From a virus, in IMG/VR virus record IMGVR_UViG_3300028557_000160, positions 1-28,026 of that record: a stretch of 28,026 nucleotides of DNA; one strand, 5' to 3'. Both the position numbers and the translations under genes were made by a program. The notes under the pieces were generated by a model, which saw only the letters and a list, made by a program, of their open reading frames with translations, made no database searches and had not been told where the DNA came from. Below are positions 1-8,931 of this stretch, one piece after another. The stretch's first letter is position 1. The number at the start of each line of letters is the position of its first letter.

Positions 1-3000
1 CACCTGCTGCACAAGCTGTGATGGCTCTCCAAGGATATAGGCATCGGCCAATGCGGTCTGATCGGAGAGCCGCTTCTCCAACTCCGCGATCTTCGCCTCG
101 TCCCTGACGCCCCCATCCCGGAGCTTCTGGCCCCAGTCGGATTGGATCTGGTCTATCGTGTAGACCGGACGACCTTGGTGAGACGTCATAGACGTCATCA
201 TGTGGCCGACTATGTTGGGCTCGGGGAAGTGGCCGGAGCGGAAGTTGTCCCATTCTCCACTCTTGCCGAGCATGTTCTGCACGGCTTCAAAATCTGCCCA
301 TGTGTGCGGACCACCGCTGCCAACGCCTTCTTCGCGCATCTGCTTCATTCTGGCGCGAATGGCATCATCGCCAAATTCAGGCAGATGTATCACCGTCTCC
401 CTATAGGTTGGGTTGGACGGGTCGAGGGAGTAGGCGTTCCATTTGGTGGGCTCGAAAGCCGGCAGCGCATTCTTGCGTGCTTTCAACGCGTCAAACTGCC
501 GGTCGATCTCAAGGACGCGCGGGTCGGCGCGCTCCTCTGGCGAGTTGATCCCTAGCCCGCGCGCCCGGTATTCATCAGTGATGAGCCGGAGGGCTTGCCG
601 CAGAGCCTCCTCCTCTTGCCCGATCTGCGCGCGTTCTGGCGTGACACCATACGTGCGCTCCTGCATCTGCACCCTATTCTCCCCCGCCACCCGCGCGAGG
701 TCTGAGACTGGGACGGCTTTGCTCGGGTCGACGCGAATGTACTCGCGCCCGTTGGTTGTCGTAAACGATAGCCCGTCATGCCCGGCCGCTGACGCCGCCT
801 TGATGAGTTCGCCCATCGTGGTGGACATGGGCAGTCCCAACTGCTGCTTCGCCTCGACCCAATTCTTGGTGGTCAGCAGATTGTTGAACGTGACGCTCTC
901 AGACGTTACCGAGCCGTCTTCGCCGGCGTACATGCGCGCAACGCCCTCGTCGGGCGACATGAACAGCGCGCCGCCCTCGGTCCCCTTGGTCGACTTAGGG
1001 TCGCGCCCTTTCTGCACGCCACGGTAAAGCGTCACCGTCTCCGTTGCGCCCTTGGGCATCAAGAGATCAAGCAGCCCACGAGCTTCAAGTTCCGACGCCT
1101 TCACGCCGCGCTGCTGGAGCGTCTGTGCGGTGACCTTATCCTTCGGCCTGAACCCGCCGAGGACTTCGTCGAGCTTGGAATAGAACCCCAGCGCATCAAA
1201 CTGCCGGCGCATAGTCCGACCGGTCGCTTGGTCCTGCTCTAACGTGACCGAACTAGCTTGGTCGTCGACAAGGGAGGAGAGGATTTCGGAGGGCCGCAGC
1301 GCCGCGAACGTCGTCGCTTCCTGATCGCCGAGTCCTTCCTCCTCAAGCAACGTCGCCAAACGATCGTTCAAATCTTGCTCGACATACGAATCGGAGGCGC
1401 GCAGTCCTGGCGCCCCGGCTGCATCGGGGTGGAAGAAGTCGAGCGCGCTGCGCACCCGAGAGGAGTCCCAGAAGAAAGCGGAGTCCTTGCCGATCCCCTG
1501 CGCGGTGTCCCTGTAGATCACCCCGTCGTAGCCCAGACGGTCCAGTTCCGCTGACAGATCCCGCGAGAACCGGTGGTTCACCGTTCCGGGTTGGCTGGTG
1601 ACGTACTGGCCGTTCTTGAGGATCCACCCCGCCACGAAGCGCTTCAGGGCCTCCGGGCCGTCGAAGTCCGGATGCTTCATGCCCGCGATCCACGCCATCG
1701 GCTGATGCCAATGGCCGTAGTTCAGGCTGGTGACGTGCGGCATCCGCAGCATCTTCTCCGCGCGAACGCGCAGAGGCGTGACGGAGGGGTTCGGGGACTC
1801 CGACAGCTTGCCGGCGCCCAGCCATTGGTAGAGACGGTCCAGCAGGGCCGTGGGGTGCAGGACGCGGGCATTGGCGCCATGCGGCTGGCCGAGAGACACA
1901 TGGAACCCGAACGCGCCGGTCGAGCGGTAGGGGTCGATCGTCTCGAGCGTTCCAAGGCGGGCGCCGTGGAAGGCTTCGACCGTGAACGCCTGCGCACGCG
2001 CGCGCGAGTCTACGGCATCACGTTTCAGTTCATCGGCGAGGAAGGCTTCGAACGCGGCAGCCCGGGCTGCGGGGTCTGCGAGGACTTGGCTGATTGCAGC
2101 GCGCTCTGCGCCTCCTTCAACAGTCCCTTGCGGTCCGGATGTCCCTTCGGCAGCTTCTCCGCCTTGGCGATCAGCCCCGACGCCAGCGCCAATATCGCGC
2201 CCTTCTGCTCTGCCATTCTCAATCTCCCTCAACAGCGCCGCTTTGAGTTGAGCCCGGCGCGTGGTCTCTTTGTAGAGCTTTTCCTTCAGACCCACAAACG
2301 GCGTACCGTCGTCGCCCTGTTGGGGCCCCTGCATCGCGGCGCCCATGCCGGAGACGAGCGACGACAGCACTTCGCCCTCGTCGGGCTTCGCCTGCACTGG
2401 TGCTTCTTTCTGGGGCTTCAGTTCCTTGGTCAACTGCTCGAGACGGGCTTTCACCTCGGCCAATCGCAGCGCACGCAAGAACGGGGTGGGGGTCGACTGC
2501 TTTTCAAGTCGGACCAGATCCTCCCGCTTGTTCGCGAGCGTCTGCTCCGTGTGCTTCACCAGTCCCGGCACGCCGACCACGATGTTGGTGATCTGACTCA
2601 CGAGGCCGATGGGATCGGACTCGGCCGCGATCAGGCGGTCGTAGCCCGGCTGAATGTAGGTCGCCTCGCCACGAAGTTCGAACTGGAACGCCGCGCCGTT
2701 GTCGACCTTGCGGGCGCGCGCAATCACCGGGAACCCCGAGATCGAACCGACCTCGATGTCGAGCGGCGCGCTCGTCCAATGCCGGCCCATGGCGCGCAGG
2801 ATCTCGGCGCGGATCGCCTCGCCGGCTTCTTTCCGATCTGTGACGTCGCCCTGCTTGGTGGTCGTGTCGAGGCGCATGGCGAACTTGTCGCCCCGGACGT
2901 CTTGAACCTTCGGAGCATCCGCTTGGTAGGCGGTCATCACCTTTTCCAGGCGCGCAATGTCGCCCTTCGTGTTGGCGGCTTCGCGCTGCGCGGCGAGGTA

Positions 3001-6000
3001 GGAGCGCTCATGGCCGCGCTTCGCGGCGTCGAGGGTGCGCTCCTCCTTTTGCAACTGGGCCAATTCCAGAATACGCGGGTCGCCGGTTGCCGCCGCGCGC
3101 AGTTCCGCAGCTTCCGGCAAGGGGCTGTCGATATCCTCCATCGTCCGGACGCCTCGAGCACCGGCCCGGAACTTCGCGTCGTTCTCGGCTTTTCCCTCCA
3201 GCAGGTTCCACGTCAGCACGTCGGCCGAGGTCGCCGTGATGTAGCGGTAGATCTCGACCTCTTTGTTCTCGTTGCCCTGCCGGATGATGCGGCCGTCGCG
3301 CTGCACCAAGTCGGCCGGGTTGTACGGGGCATCAAGGTGATGCGCGGCAATGAGGTAGCGCTGGCCGTTGGTGCCCACACCCATCTTGGCGGAGGAGCCC
3401 AACAGAATGCGAACCTTGCCCTCGCGGACAGCCTTGAACAGCTTCGCCTTCTGCAGATCGTCCTTGGCGTCGTAGATGGTGGCGATCTCGTTGCGGGGGA
3501 TACCAGACGCCACGAGCCGATCGATGATGTCCGGATAGAGATCGGACCGGCCGCGCGTCAGCTCCTCGATCTCGGCCGCGGCGTCCTCGTCGGAGTCGGT
3601 CTCCTCCTGGCCGGCCAGCTTGCCCCGGATCTTCTCAATCTGGTTTTCGTCGTCGACGTCCTCGTCCTGCTCGACCTTCGGCTTTTTCTTTCGGGTGTTC
3701 GGGACGCCCATGTCGAGCCAGATGATCTGCGCCAGCGCCGGCTTCTTGCCCTCGCGGTAAATCCGGGCGACGTTCTCCAGCATCTTGCCGATCTTGCCGT
3801 TCGGATTGAACGGCGCATCGGGATCGAGCAACCGCGCGTCGGTCGCCAACTGGCGCATGCGCGTATACAGCGATAGGTGGTTCGGCTCGCCTTTCTTGAC
3901 GGGGCCCTTGAGCTTGGCGATTTGCTCGATGAGCGCCTTGTTCCTTGCAGCCTCCTCGGCTGTGAAGGTGGCGTCGACCTTTTTGACCCCGCCGCCCTTC
4001 ACGTTCGGGCGGACGATGCCGACGTCCTCGGCCGACCTGGTGTCCGCGATCCGAGAATAGATCGCCTGGAGTTCCGGCACGTTGACGAACGTCGCCGACG
4101 TGACGTCCTCGAGCTTGCCGTTGGGCTTGGTTTCCAGCCGGACGCGGACGTTGCCGAACGTCGCGAACCACGAGTCGAACCGCTCGATCCCGTACTCACG
4201 GAGCGTGTCGAGTTGCAGGTAGCGTTGGATCGTATAGACCTCGGCCATCGACCGGGACATCGGCGTGCCCGTCGCGAACACGGCCGACCGCCCGGGACGC
4301 GACTTCTCGAGATGCCGGATCTTCAGGAACAGATCGGTGGCGCGCTGCGATCCCTTGACGCCCAGGCCTTTGAGGTTGTGGCGCGAGGTGTAGTCGAGGT
4401 TCTTGAAGGTGTGCGACTCGTCGGTGATAAGGAGGTCGACACCAAGTTCCTCGAACGTGACGCCCGTGTCCTTTCGCTCCTGGGCCAGCAGTTTGGCCAG
4501 CTTCTTCTCGATCTGCTTTTTCTTCCGCTCGATATTCTTGACGGTCGGGTCGCGCGACGGCTTGCTCTTCACTCCCTCCTTACCGATGTCGTCGAAGTCG
4601 GATTCGTTCGCCACTTCCTTGGCTTGGCGCTTCGCGTCCAGCCACGCCTCGAGGATCTCGGCCTTTTCCTCGTTGATGAAATCGATGTACGCCTGCTGCT
4701 GCATCGGCAGGCGGCCGAACGCGGAATGCGTGATGATGATCGCATCCCACTTGTCGGCGGCGATCCGGGCGGCGAACGCCTTCCGGTTCTTCGCCTCCAT
4801 GTACTTCTCTTCGGCGACGAGGATCTTGGCGTTCGGGTAGGCTTGCAGGAACTCGCGGCTGAACTGCTCCAGCATGTGGTTCGGGATCTGGATCAGTGGA
4901 CGCTGGGCCATGCCGAGGCGCTTCGCCTCCATGGCAATGGCCACCATCGTGAAGGTCTTACCCAGGCCGACTGCGTGGTCCAGCAGGGTGTTCCCGAGGG
5001 TCAGGAACCGCCACACAGCGTTCTTCTGGTGCGGCCGGAGGGCAAACGGCACGATCTGCCCCTGTGCGTTGGTGATCGACGTCGCCATGCCGGGGAAGGT
5101 CAGATGCGACCCGTCGACGTCGGTCTTCACGAGGCGGTTGAACTTGTTGTTGTAGAGCGCTTCGAGACGTTCGGCCCGCGCGTTGTCCTCGTACACCCAG
5201 CCTGGGATGCCGGACGTCTGATCGCCGGAGAATGTCTCTGCGATCAGCTTGGCCTTGATGGCCGCCTGCTCGGTCGCCTGAGTGTTCAGGACTTGCCCGC
5301 CGTCTTCGTCTTTGTCGAAGACGCGAACCGGCTTGTTGTTCAGGGCCGCCATGACGAGTTCGACGGCGGACACGCGATCGGTTCCGAACGCCGCCTGGGC
5401 GGCCGGGGTCGAATAGGGCGTCGTGCGGGTCGCCCAGATCCACATCGAGGAGATCGGCTCGAACTTCACTTCGGCATCGCGCAGTCCGATGACCTTGGCC
5501 AGAAACTCGTTGTAGACGTCATTCGGAACCCACGACGTCCCGAACGGCGCGGCGATGTCGACACGCGACAAGGGGGCGGGTTGCGCGGCTTCCAGAGCCG
5601 CCACGTTGCGCTGATAGGCGGGTTCGGCCTTGGCGGCTTCGCGCGCCTGCTCGAGCTTCGTGACGACGTCGCCGGACAGGTAGAGTTCCGCCAGTTCCCA
5701 TTTTTCGCCGTTGGGGTTGCGGTAGATCCGGTCGCCGATCTCAGCGGCGGCAGCGTCTTCCGACACCTTGAGCATGCCCGCGATGCGGGCCATATCGACG
5801 CCGCCGGTTTCGTTGAGCGAGACCGCCAGCGCGTCCGCCGACCCGCGCACGTCGGGACGCGTGGACGGGGCCAGAATATCGGCCGTGAAGATCGCGCGCT
5901 TGGTGGCGACCCCGGTCTCGGAATCGAAGTTCTCAATCGCGGCGACCTTGTAGGAATCCGGATCGTCGGAGAAATCTTTGAGGTTCGGCCGGCTGACCGT

Positions 6001-8931
6001 GGTGGTCGGCGTCTCTTCGCCCGTCGCCTTGTTCTTGGTGACCCGGACGGTGACGGTTTCCTTGTTGATCGGGCCGAACTCTTTGACGAAGGCGTCGTAG
6101 GCTTTGTTCAGTTTCTTGCGCAGCGCCGCGCCGTCGGCCGCCTTGCCTTGCGCCTGACCACCGAGCAACTGGTTCACCACGTCGCGGACGTCGACCAGCA
6201 GGCAGAGGCGCTTCAGCGCCTTGCCGGCGAACTTCTGCGGCACGGCTTCGCCAGTCACGTTCTGGAAAAGCTTCCCGTCCTTGAAATAAAACGATCCTTC
6301 CTTGATGCCGGCCTGGGCGAGGTCGGTCGTCTTGGTGATGTCCTCGAGGGTTTCGCCGCGGCGCACGAAGACGTCGGCCGGCATCTTTTTCGCCGCCTCG
6401 GCAATGCGCTGCCCAAGGTTCTCGGACGTACCGGCGAGCACGGGCGACGCGTCCCGGTACATCGTGCCGGTCAACCGCATTTCGCCCAGCATCATGTCGG
6501 GGCGGGCGGCGAAGTAGGCGTTGATGGACGTCGGGCCATCGGGAGTCTGGACCTCCTGAGTCTTCAGGAACTCCGCCGTCTCCGGGCGACGCTCCTCCCC
6601 CTGAAGCCGCTTGCGCAGGAAGATGATATCCGTGGTGACGTCCGTCCCAGCATTGCCGGCGAAAGCGCCGGACCGACCGCCGGGGAGGCGAATGGCACCG
6701 ACCAGGTCAGCCCTATCGGCGATCAGCCGGCGCGCGCTGTCGTTCGTCTTGTCCATGGTCCCCGAGGACGTGATGAACGCGACGAGCCCGCCCGGGCGCA
6801 CCTTGTCCAAGCCCTTCGCGAAAAAGTAGTCATGGATCAGGAGCTTAGAATACTTCCGGTCCGTCAGCGTGTAGTTGCCGAACGGCACGTTGGAGATGGC
6901 CAGATCGAAGAAATTGTCGGGGAACTGGACTTTTTCGAACCCGTCGATCCGAACGTCGGAGCCCTCATAGAGGTACTTGGCAATCGCGCCCGTGAGCTTG
7001 TCGAGTTCGACCGCTGTCCAGTCCGTGACGGTGGCGAGTTTCGCGGGGGTCAGCCCTATGAAGTGTCCCACGCCGGCCGACGGCTCGAGCGCCCGCCCCC
7101 CGGTGAAGCCCAGGTGCTGCATGCCCTGCCACATGCCATCGATCACCTCTTTCGAGGTGTAGTGGGCATTGAGCGTCGATGCCTTCGCGGCGTTGTATTC
7201 GTCGGCCGTGAGAAGATCGGTGATCTCCTGGCGTTCCTTCGCCCACTTCTTCGCGTTGTCGGAATACCTGTTGTCATCGAACACGGCTTGCGCGAACGCG
7301 CCCCAGCCGACGTACTTGACGAGAATAGCTTTTTCTTCGGCGGTGGGCTTGCGCTCGGGCTGCTCTTGCAGTTCCTTCAAGAGACGGATGGCCGCAATGT
7401 TGGCGCGGACCTTCTCTTTGGCGCCGCCTTCACCGATCGCGTCGAGTTCGGTGATCCGGTAGTTCTGCCGCCGGCGGGCCTGACGTTCCTTGTCTGCCTG
7501 CTCCTTTGCCGCCTTCAGGTCCGCATCGGTGGCACGGTCAGAACTTCCGCTTGCACGATCTCGGCCACCACTAGCGGGATCTGCTTCAGCTTCTCCGCCG
7601 TCTCCTCGAAGCTTCCGTCTGCCCCGACCGCTTGCCGGTGCATCTGCGTCCGCAGGTCGCTCTCCATCTCGAGCGCTTCCAGCGCCGTCGCCTCCAGATG
7701 GTTGGCCAGCGTCCCCGCCTTCTCCATCTTTTTGTAGACCTTCGGGAAGGACTCCATCAGGAATCGCTCCCTGAACTTCACGTACCCGGTTACGGCGCGC
7801 TGCTCTTCTGCGGTCAGTTGCATTGTCTTCCAAGTCCCTCGTGATGACGGCCGCGTTGTTGCCGATCGCGGCGGCCTCGGTCTCCAATTGACCGCGTTTC
7901 ACGAACTCGGCCTCGATGGCCTCGATCTGCTTGGCTTTGGTCCTCGCAGATTTGGCCTGACCGTAGATCCACGATACCGCGTCCAGATCGGCCTTGGTCA
8001 GCTTCGGCAGGATCTTTTTGAGATCATAGAACAGCTTGCCGTCGGTGCCAATCTTCTCCAAGGCTACGGCGTGCTTGCGGGCAACGTCGGAGACGGGCTG
8101 TCCGTAGGTGGCGGCGAGGCTGTTGACGAGGGACTCGGGGACCCCGACCGGGGAGACCTGCTCTCGCGCAGCGGGTTCGCGGGGAGACTCTGTTGTGGAG
8201 GGGGTGGACTCCGCTGGCGACGGGACAGAAGTCTCCGGCGTTGGCTCGGCCTCTGCCTCCTCCATAGCGGGAGGCTGCTCAGCGGGCGCCCTGGGCGGCT
8301 CTGGCGCTGCTGACGAATCTCCAAGTGCGCGCCGCAATTCCCACGGTGAGGGGTTATGGGCGCCCAACTCAAAGTAGCTCATCACGTGAAAGTGCTTCCC
8401 TTCCTCCCCATTCTGGACAATTTGAAAAGCAAGCTCACCGCTATCATCTCGATAGAGGACGATGGTTTTCTTCCCATCGCGCTCGGTAACACGAACGGTG
8501 TATGTATCCTCCATGCCCGGATCATGCACCTTATCGCCCGTCCGCAGACCATCGGCGGCGGCGGCCCAGCCGTCGCGTTTAGTTTGCTCGGCGGGCGATA
8601 GGTTCTGCGGCGTAAAGACGCCGACTGTGAACGGATTGGGAGACTTTGCTGTCACCGCTTGTTTGGCCGGTTCCGGGCGGGGCTTAGCGGCCTCCAGGGC
8701 GTCATCGATGATGCGCAGTGTCCCCTCGCCCAGTGCCGCCTCGATCTGATCCAGAATATCCGCGCGCGCCGTGATCAGGTCTTGCAGGACCGGAACGAGG
8801 GCAGTCCGGACAGCCTCATCCTCCGACTGTCCATCGGCCAGCGCCTGCTGGTAGGCCGCCGTGATCGCAGCATGATCTTCCTGTGCCAGGAAGCGTTTGG
8901 TCTGCGAGAGGCATTTAGCCAACGATGCCAT
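1..8931 (-). CDS. Giant phage polyvalent protein, DarB-like methylase-helicase with ART-like domains (3' end outside window)
   Basis: One open frame of 2977 codons runs off the left edge. The start is ATG 8931, with AGGA about 10 nt upstream and a 17-nt overlap with the preceding gene. Residues 1-370 are a helical, partly Pro/Glu-rich region of unknown role. Residues about 560-800 are an N6-adenine methyltransferase: SAM motif EPSAGVG (616-622) and catalytic NVPFG (681-685). Residues about 1290-1900 are an SF2 SNF2/strawberry-notch-like helicase: GLGKT (1322-1326), DESH (1504-1507), FATGTP, GSSAKMGVGTN and RDGRIIRQGN (1878-1887). A coiled-coil extension follows to about 2237. ART-like domain 1 covers about 2318-2510 (FHG, GAFGFH, GYDG), ART-like domain 2 about 2632-2735 (LYRG, ALFMSPDEGVARMYAG), and a phage domain with IQSDW ends at 2929-2933. 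Related DarB/polyvalent proteins are packaged and injected to protect phage DNA and modify the host. That role here is inferred from homology by eye and from position in the virion module. Confidence 0.9.
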   Translation of the reverse strand, partial: MASLAKCLSQTKRFLAQEDHAAITAAYQQALADGQSEDEAVRTALVPVLQDLITARADILDQIEAALGEGTLRIIDDALEAAKPRPEPAKQAVTAKSPNPFTVGVFTPQNLSPAEQTKRDGWAAAADGLRTGDKVHDPGMEDTYTVRVTERDGKKTIVLYRDDSGELAFQIVQNGEEGKHFHVMSYFELGAHNPSPWELRRALGDSSAAPEPPRAPAEQPPAMEEAEAEPTPETSVPSPAESTPSTTESPREPAAREQVSPVGVPESLVNSLAATYGQPVSDVARKHAVALEKIGTDGKLFYDLKKILPKLTKADLDAVSWIYGQAKSARTKAKQIEAIEAEFVKRGQLETEAAAIGNNAAVITRDLEDNATDRRRAARRNRVREVQGAIPDGVLPEGLQKDGEGGDAGQPSGGDGAGSARDGERPADADAPASGRGRRKLRGDGGEAEADPASGGRDRASGSSDRATDADLKAAKEQADKERQARRRQNYRITELDAIGEGGAKEKVRANIAAIRLLKELQEQPERKPTAEEKAILVKYVGWGAFAQAVFDDNRYSDNAKKWAKERQEITDLLTADEYNAAKASTLNAHYTSKEVIDGMWQGMQHLGFTGGRALEPSAGVGHFIGLTPAKLATVTDWTAVELDKLTGAIAKYLYEGSDVRIDGFEKVQFPDNFFDLAISNVPFGNYTLTDRKYSKLLIHDYFFAKGLDKVRPGGLVAFITSSGTMDKTNDSARRLIADRADLVGAIRLPGGRSGAFAGNAGTDVTTDIIFLRKRLQGEERRPETAEFLKTQEVQTPDGPTSINAYFAARPDMMLGEMRLTGTMYRDASPVLAGTSENLGQRIAEAAKKMPADVFVRRGETLEDITKTTDLAQAGIKEGSFYFKDGKLFQNVTGEAVPQKFAGKALKRLCLLVDVRDVVNQLLGGQAQGKAADGAALRKKLNKAYDAFVKEFGPINKETVTVRVTKNKATGEETPTTTVSRPNLKDFSDDPDSYKVAAIENFDSETGVATKRAIFTADILAPSTRPDVRGSADALAVSLNETGGVDMARIAGMLKVSEDAAAAEIGDRIYRNPNGEKWELAELYLSGDVVTKLEQAREAAKAEPAYQRNVAALEAAQPAPLSRVDIAAPFGTSWVPNDVYNEFLAKVIGLRDAEVKFEPISSMWIWATRTTPYSTPAAQAAFGTDRVSAVELVMAALNNKPVRVFDKDEDGGQVLNTQATEQAAIKAKLIAETFSGDQTSGIPGWVYEDNARAERLEALYNNKFNRLVKTDVDGSHLTFPGMATSITNAQGQIVPFALRPHQKNAVWRFLTLGNTLLDHAVGLGKTFTMVAIAMEAKRLGMAQRPLIQIPNHMLEQFSREFLQAYPNAKILVAEEKYMEAKNRKAFAARIAADKWDAIIITHSAFGRLPMQQQAYIDFINEEKAEILEAWLDAKRQAKEVANESDFDDIGKEGVKSKPSRDPTVKNIERKKKQIEKKLAKLLAQERKDTGVTFEELGVDLLITDESHTFKNLDYTSRHNLKGLGVKGSQRATDLFLKIRHLEKSRPGRSAVFATGTPMSRSMAEVYTIQRYLQLDTLREYGIERFDSWFATFGNVRVRLETKPNGKLEDVTSATFVNVPELQAIYSRIADTRSAEDVGIVRPNVKGGGVKKVDATFTAEEAARNKALIEQIAKLKGPVKKGEPNHLSLYTRMRQLATDARLLDPDAPFNPNGKIGKMLENVARIYREGKKPALAQIIWLDMGVPNTRKKKPKVEQDEDVDDENQIEKIRGKLAGQEETDSDEDAAAEIEELTRGRSDLYPDIIDRLVASGIPRNEIATIYDAKDDLQKAKLFKAVREGKVRILLGSSAKMGVGTNGQRYLIAAHHLDAPYNPADLVQRDGRIIRQGNENKEVEIYRYITATSADVLTWNLLEGKAENDAKFRAGARGVRTMEDIDSPLPEAAELRAAATGDPRILELAQLQKEERTLDAAKRGHERSYLAAQREAANTKGDIARLEKVMTAYQADAPKVQDVRGDKFAMRLDTTTKQGDVTDRKEAGEAIRAEILRAMGRHWTSAPLDIEVGSISGFPVIARARKVDNGAAFQFELRGEATYIQPGYDRLIAAESDPIGLVSQITNIVVGVPGLVKHTEQTLANKREDLVRLEKQSTPTPFLRALRLAEVKARLEQLTKELKPQKEAPVQAKPDEGEVLSSLVSGMGAAMQGPQQGDDGTPFVGLKEKLYKETTRRAQLKAALLREIENGRAEGRDIGAGVGADRQGGEAAEGTSGPQGTVEGGAERAAISQVLADPAARAAAFEAFLADELKRDAVDSRARAQAFTVEAFHGARLGTLETIDPYRSTGAFGFHVSLGQPHGANARVLHPTALLDRLYQWLGAGKLSESPNPSVTPLRVRAEKMLRMPHVTSLNYGHWHQPMAWIAGMKHPDFDGPEALKRFVAGWILKNGQYVTSQPGTVNHRFSRDLSAELDRLGYDGVIYRDTAQGIGKDSAFFWDSSRVRSALDFFHPDAAGAPGLRASDSYVEQDLNDRLATLLEEEGLGDQEATTFAALRPSEILSSLVDDQASSVTLEQDQATGRTMRRQFDALGFYSKLDEVLGGFRPKDKVTAQTLQQRGVKASELEARGLLDLLMPKGATETVTLYRGVQKGRDPKSTKGTEGGALFMSPDEGVARMYAGEDGSVTSESVTFNNLLTTKNWVEAKQQLGLPMSTTMGELIKAASAAGHDGLSFTTTNGREYIRVDPSKAVPVSDLARVAGENRVQMQERTYGVTPERAQIGQEEEALRQALRLITDEYRARGLGINSPEERADPRVLEIDRQFDALKARKNALPAFEPTKWNAYSLDPSNPTYRETVIHLPEFGDDAIRARMKQMREEGVGSGGPHTWADFEAVQNMLGKSGEWDNFRSGHFPEPNIVGHMMTSMTSHQGRPVYTIDQIQSDWGQKLRDGGVRDEAKIAELEKRLSDQTALADAYILGEPSQLVQQV
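2025..2216 (-). CDS. Nested 63-residue protein, +1 frame inside the polyvalent gene
   Basis: ATG 2216 is preceded by GAGGGAG with a 7-nt spacer, a strong ribosome binding site, and the frame stops at TGA 2025. About 54 of 63 codons end in G or C, as in real genes of this window. In the same stretch the host frame gives a Gly/Ala/Glu-rich low-complexity peptide with more A/T third positions, and it becomes convincingly protein-like again only over the last 60-80 bases. The product starts MAEQKGAILALASGLIAKAE, is probably helical, and has a basic, Pro/Ser-rich tail. No family was recognised. It sits in the linker between the helicase extension and the first ART-like domain. The alternative is a pair of compensating frameshifts in one polyprotein, but the good ribosome binding site argues for separate translation. 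Confidence 0.6.
   Translation of the reverse strand: MAEQKGAILALASGLIAKAEKLPKGHPDRKGLLKEAQSALQSAKSSQTPQPGLPRSKPSSPMN
7515..7823 (-). CDS. Nested 102-residue protein, +1 frame inside the polyvalent gene
   Basis: ATG 7823 to TGA 7515, wholly inside the giant gene but one frame over. About 86 of 102 codons end in G or C. The host frame across the same bases gives a Gly/Asp/Arg/Ala-rich peptide with only about 40% GC at third positions. The nested product starts MQLTAEEQRAVTGYVKFRER and has a regular pattern of hydrophobic, Glu and Lys residues typical of a small helical protein. It resembles small phage proteins of the TAEEQ...FPK...M...GTL type, but I assign no function. The upstream signal is modest: GGAAG close to the ATG and GAGGG about 12 nt away. 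The host frame has no usable ATG, GTG or TTG between this stop and the methylase domain, so the methylase must be translated through the linker or by frameshifting. Confidence 0.6.
   Translation of the reverse strand: MQLTAEEQRAVTGYVKFRERFLMESFPKVYKKMEKAGTLANHLEATALEALEMESDLRTQMHRQAVGADGSFEETAEKLKQIPLVVAEIVQAEVLTVPPMRT

Follow-up and report, generated by a model that had tools for sequence, protein, structure and literature searches.

A TnpV-family gene apparently nested in the +1 frame of a DarB-like methylase-helicase gene of phages and bacterial mobile elements

The window analysed here is the whole of a 28,026-base virus record, IMGVR_UViG_3300028557_000160. Its minus strand carries a giant DarB-like polyvalent gene, and within the +1 frame of that gene lies an open reading frame (ORF), 7823..7515, of 102 codons. 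Codon usage, homology and conservation indicate that this ORF is a real gene, and neither a sequencing artefact, nor a chance ORF, nor one half of a frameshift pair. Very probably, it encodes a protein of the TnpV family and is wholly nested in the DarB-like gene, the same bases coding for two proteins. The features concerned are the following, all on the minus strand.

7515..7823, nested gene of 102 amino acids, TnpV family (PF14198), in the +1 frame of the giant gene; ATG at 7823, TGA at 7517-7515
7827..7839, Shine-Dalgarno-like stretch 5' of the nested ATG (AGGGA at 7839-7835, GGAAG at 7831-7827)
1..8931, giant DarB-like polyvalent gene with N-terminal domains, linker, adenine methylase, SNF2-type helicase and more domains; an open frame that exits at the window edge
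7515..7833, putatively overprinted low-complexity linker of the giant protein across the nested gene, delimited by codon usage and by frame openness in homologues
6601..7464, methylase-domain region beginning NYRITELDAIGEGG, directly 3' of the nested gene, delimited by translation and tblastn relatives

Coding signal, protein family and host gene

The first-pass annotation, made from the letters alone, had given the coordinates, strand, ATG, TGA and codon number of the nested ORF exactly, and the move of the coding signal to the +1 frame that it described is borne out by position-specific guanine-cytosine (GC) content and by a codon model. GC at the third positions of the giant frame falls from ~0.85 to 0.37 over 7842-7543, and GC at the three codon positions of the nested frame is 0.65/0.37/0.82. 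In the codon model, applied to five long genes of the window, the nested ORF is the sole site where another frame beats the annotated one. Codon usage in the giant frame across the linker (mean log relative usage) is -1.77, outside all 275 windows of the remaining gene (mean -0.92 +- 0.16, lowest -1.33), while that of the nested frame is -0.97, similar to the giant gene elsewhere. ORF length was rejected as coding evidence: synonymous resampling of the host codons leaves the +1 frame open in 94% of trials (P = 0.94). Since an open +1 frame is unsurprising here, the evidence for the nested gene is taken from codon usage, homology and conservation, and not from openness.

The giant frame is stop-free from 8931 to the window edge, as had been noted; on a second IMG/VR contig of 38,306 bases, identical to the window across the part compared, the giant ORF comprises 5761 amino acids and terminates in TAG. 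The giant protein matches phrog_10089 (DarB-like antirestriction) with 1578.7 bits and ResIII of Pfam, and an adenine methylase followed by an SNF2-type helicase within one giant ORF places it among the DarB-like proteins. The linker peptide in the giant frame consists of Gly, Arg, Asp and Glu and looks disordered. Between 7833 and 7380 the giant frame contains no ATG, GTG or TTG, in line with the earlier remark that no usable host-frame start precedes the methylase, and this leaves the methylase part without its own start. The methylase-domain region has 34 viral and 562 bacterial relatives by tblastn.

The profile search that had been proposed as a check assigns the 102-residue protein to TnpV above the gathering cut-off (E 1.4e-7; 31.9 bits against a cut-off of 27; residues 2-94 on profile positions 14-110 of 111). 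The nested protein of the related locus L005 matches the same family at 2.8e-10, and hhalign of the nested phage proteins to TnpV gives a probability of 85% (E 6e-6); divergent phage members score under the Pfam cut-off. The AlphaFold model of the window protein contains five helices (predicted local distance difference test score, pLDDT, 83), and in that of a bacterial TnpV nested likewise the helices follow in the same order, with a beta hairpin added at the N-terminus (pLDDT 90); the common fold is judged from the order of the five helices, not from superposition. Foldseek searches of the nested protein against PDB and BFVD gave nothing significant, and a profile search of PDB sequences found designed helical proteins and a chance-level match only. 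The idea of a DNA mimic was rejected, since the family is only mildly acidic (median isoelectric point 5.1). In PHROGs the window protein has a weak match only; the protein of phage LASTA aligns with the C-terminal end of phrog_938, perhaps owing to a split giant gene of the kind seen in Sinorhizobium phage PBC5 (L149), where the giant gene is divided in two.

Recurrence and constraint on both frames

Far more than a hundred phages and bacterial mobile elements carry the nested gene. Contigs L005 and L023, mutually identical in this part, have 68% DNA identity to the window across the region, with both frames intact, and share with it the nested ATG and its CAACTGACC context. In many viral relatives of the methylase domain, a +1 ORF occupies the low-complexity linker immediately before the NYRIT..GEGG motif; clearly one nested family (MNLNNWxxxARxHWKExxP...) is found in phages POI1126, Itty13, Mwe-JY07, LASTA, SopranoGao and PEp14, as well as in Pavtok, Stean, VvAW1, PBC5 and Atu_ph08, and more divergent ORFs occupy the nested position in BcepIL02, USP_18 and Y7. 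A profile scan of IMG/VR yielded 67 loci; apart from two that are cut by contig ends, all (n = 65) have an open giant frame, the nested ORF in phase +1 to it and the methylase region downstream in that giant frame, and the remaining same-strand frame is closed in 67/67. A TnpV-like ORF lies on the same strand in 70 of the 80 bacterial methylase-domain loci, and several of the other ten are short or cut near the methylase. Its phase is +1 in 69/70, the exception being one broken case, and the methylase ORF spans it except in L051, L058, L065 and L114, where the giant frame is split (~66/70). Elements with the nested gene belong to Clostridia, Paenibacillus, Synergistes and Verrucomicrobia, and include many phages of Proteobacteria. 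A tblastn search with the window protein against phages gave no match, the protein being too divergent, and no nested TnpV is detectable in P1 darB.

Each of the 21 isolate-phage records with the LASTA protein has the giant gene or its equivalent as the sole annotated feature at that place, and the nested gene is unannotated. A TnpV protein appears in the gene table of the Cohnella herbarum plasmid NZ_CP051681, and the neighbouring methylase match has no listed gene (the table is incomplete), which suggests that annotation chooses one frame or the other. A description of TnpV nested in a methylase-helicase gene was not found in the open-access papers searched, preprints excepted; TnpV, polyvalent proteins and nested genes are each already known.

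Comparing homologues for conservation of both frames had also been proposed, and both are maintained: the nested frame by its ratio of non-synonymous to synonymous rates (N/S), the giant frame by openness above expectation. This is the double constraint looked for in overlapping genes. In close pairs of isolate phages, N/S of the nested frame is 0.12-0.45, and in 14 pairs of bacterial elements it is 0.03-0.41; in the same bases, N/S of the host frame is mostly > 1, as expected when changes concentrate at the nested third positions. Between the window and L005, nested similarity is 221 against a null of 3 +- 23 (maximum 86 of 3000) with host peptides fixed and codons resampled, and host similarity is 150 against 89 +- 23 (P 0.003) with nested peptides fixed. 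Conservation of the nested frame is thus its own, and that of the host frame goes slightly further than the nested frame alone would require. Across the nested gene, the giant frame stays open in 65/65 viral loci, compared with 8.3 expected given the nested proteins, and in 69/70 bacterial loci, compared with 4.0 expected (low-GC loci 24/24, 1.0 expected). The chance of an open giant frame is 0.001-0.002 in the alternative phase and 0.06-0.13 in +1, and this difference may explain the constant +1 phase.

A shorter ORF looks similar in kind to 7823..7515.

2025..2216, minus strand, second candidate nested +1 ORF of 63 amino acids in another Gly-rich linker of the giant gene, with a homologue in L235

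This ORF has AGGGAG 7 nucleotides (nt) before its ATG. The L235 homologue, at 3128, has 56% identity (E 1e-10) and likewise has phase +1 relative to the giant frame; between the two, nested similarity is 145 against a null of 26 +- 19. Searches of Pfam and of phages gave no match. In Bacteroides phage BKO1-TP3 (L226, ~3700-3960), the corresponding linker before the methylase domain contains a +1 ORF, MDEYTKKVLRLQGHSEKSIAKMELEERIDAACYRH..., that is unlike TnpV.

Translation, origin and possible function

Nested starts have an anti-Shine-Dalgarno duplex of -4 kcal/mol or stronger in 97% of cases (n = 90), compared with 18-19% of control ATGs; the Shine-Dalgarno (SD) sequence is strong in 26/28 representatives below 55% identity, and its spacing to the ATG peaks at 6-9 nt. 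The duplex of the window, -6.1 kcal/mol, is matched by 3-5% of control ATGs. Among bacterial loci, 94% have a best start near the domain that passes the SD criterion, compared with 45% when control sites are searched likewise. In LASTA and PEp14, a stop in the nested frame lies 3-4 codons 5' of the nested ATG. A conserved start with an SD sequence, together with near-upstream stops in several phages, argues for independent initiation rather than frameshifting. Ribosomes would thus initiate the small protein at its own SD sequence and ATG inside the message, and other ribosomes would read through to yield the giant protein.

Several observations weigh against this dual-coding reading. The SD sequence of the window is weaker and nearer the ATG (the nearer motif 3 nt away, the alternative being the farther AGGGA) than those of most relatives; N/S between the window and L005 is 0.87, the two being too diverged for a clear signal; in the window taken by itself, an open giant frame is nothing unusual once the nested protein is given (P 0.38); and the counts of loci ignore kinship, the loci being phylogenetically non-independent.

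Of the three explanations that the first-pass annotation had set side by side, overprinting within a linker is upheld by the homologues, with the correction that the nested frame is probably the older and the linker the overprint; the other two are very improbable. A programmed +1 frameshift would carry ribosomes from the N-terminal part of the giant gene into the TnpV frame as far as the stop at 7515, and a fusion with TnpV would be made besides the full protein. The nested frame of the window is indeed open for 25 codons 5' of its ATG, and in PBC5 the N-terminal part runs in frame into TnpV-like sequence; however, the PBC5 fusion is attributable to a disruption of the linker frame relative to Agrobacterium phage Atu_ph08, the stops in LASTA and PEp14 oppose a shift, and upstream sequences inspected by eye share the ATG and SD sequence with no common slippery site seen. 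With a conserved ATG and SD sequence, and no slippery site noticed by eye, a frameshift is very unlikely. Compensating indels or an assembly error, by which the 102 residues would really belong to the giant polypeptide, would account for the shift and return of the coding signal, but the region is identical in a second IMG/VR contig, the arrangement recurs in more than 130 relatives, and no relative was found with TnpV-like sequence in frame inside a full-length giant protein, one of the two findings that had been named as refuting the nesting. Both frames are kept in relatives at 68% DNA identity and in viral and bacterial loci, which excludes indels at both borders and leaves this explanation a negligible probability.

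It might also be supposed that only the nested gene is real and that the giant frame is open by chance, the methylase-helicase starting downstream. The openness found in the window by itself and a linker peptide without a recognisable domain would suit this reading, but the observed openness across viral and bacterial loci far exceeds the 8.3 and 4.0 expected, the giant frame lacks a start codon over 7833-7380, and in phage JC1 a single DarB-like product of 4515 amino acids is present in virions, with 51 peptides (PMC9144972); we regard it as extremely improbable.

The dual-coding reading leaves the age of the frames to be considered. The nested gene is probably older than the giant linker overprinted on it, because stand-alone TnpV paralogues share a contig with a nested one: a single contig (L013 / L118, L133, L136) has TnpV three times, twice as a stand-alone gene and once nested in +1 of a giant ORF. 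The linker would have arisen by overprinting when an upstream polyvalent gene and a downstream methylase-helicase gene fused across the nested gene.

As to function, we propose only tentatively that the small helical protein is a partner, an assembly or control factor, made in cis from the same message as the adjacent methylase-helicase. The nested gene is linked to the methylase-helicase module in every locus examined; this linkage, from which the partner function is deduced, weighs less in that the methylase domain served to find most of the loci, or they lie near it by construction. Dual coding with another function, either a Xis-like excision factor as postulated for TnpV of Tn4451 or an independent anti-defence protein, seems somewhat doubtful. 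TnpV has been postulated to be Xis-like (PMC3158075), and DUF1896 genes occur near AcrIIA9 homologues (PMC6739104). Against such roles, the conserved core of the predicted fold consists of helices throughout, without a winged helix, the neighbour in the loci examined is a methylase-helicase and not a recombinase, and LASTA and PEp14 carry the nested gene inside a DarB-like gene; an anti-defence role nonetheless keeps some probability. It is conceivable, though short of probable, that the arrangement is an ancient dual-coding module of phages and conjugative elements of several phyla, with a small helical partner inside the ORF of the methylase-helicase that it serves, in the sole phase that leaves the host frame open, and that polyvalent linkers hide more nested genes, such as 2216..2025 and the BKO1-TP3 ORF.

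In prokaryotes, a long gene nested in another on the same strand seldom gains acceptance, since annotation programs rule such genes out and many of the cases reported are young orphans. The nested TnpV appears to be old, recurs, is a member of a named family and is regularly overlooked when phages are annotated. For the DarB-like methylase-helicase, of whose action little is understood, it is a candidate partner.

Comparison with known systems

The nested protein resembles TnpV (PF14198; tnpV of Tn4451/Tn4453) in sequence family, above the gathering score, in similar length and in predicted helix order. In Tn4451/Tn4453, the gene stands alone beside a recombinase, whereas here it is nested and tied to a methylase-helicase (no recombinase search was made in the window). 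TnpV-carrying mobilizable elements insert specifically into snf2 genes of integrative and conjugative elements of Streptococcus suis (PMC9815147). The snf2 gene is the same kind of gene that hosts the nested TnpV in the bacterial loci. The host gene itself belongs to the DarB/polyvalent methylase-SNF2 helicase proteins described by Iyer et al. 2017 (PMC5512222), whose main text mentions neither TnpV nor an overlapping gene.

DUF1896 (PF08989; PG0816, PDB 2apl) of Bacteroidota is likewise small, acidic and helical, and its gene immediately precedes one for a methylase/helicase; among structural matches of the window protein, PG0816 ranks first (Z 8.2, root-mean-square deviation 2.1, 70 residues). 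DUF1896 differs in being a separate gene with an 11-nt overlap and no significant sequence match: in Bacteroides plasmids L228 (3414-3866) and L232 (3501-3938), the DUF1896 genes end 11 nt inside the methylase/helicase start, in a phase that differs from that of the nested TnpV. Less favourably for kinship, PG0816 is absent from the matches of the TnpV model, DUF1896 is not among the Pfam matches of the window protein, and the hhalign probability is 25%. As sequence comparison does not establish common descent, DUF1896 is treated as a lead, one that would fit a small helical protein encoded just before or within the methylase-helicase gene and working with it.

The embedded Rz1 genes in the Rz spanin genes are complete genes nested in the +1 frame with their own start. 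The embedded class has been noted in JC1 (PMC9144972); the proteins are unrelated to those discussed here, and both are lysis proteins of small genes. In the paramyxovirus P/C overlap (PMC3934983), a folded protein is encoded, as here, in another frame over a disordered part of a larger one. There, however, the C protein is the newly originated one, whereas the nested TnpV protein is probably the older, which suggests that a folded gene served as the template for a disordered linker, the reverse of the usual overprinting.

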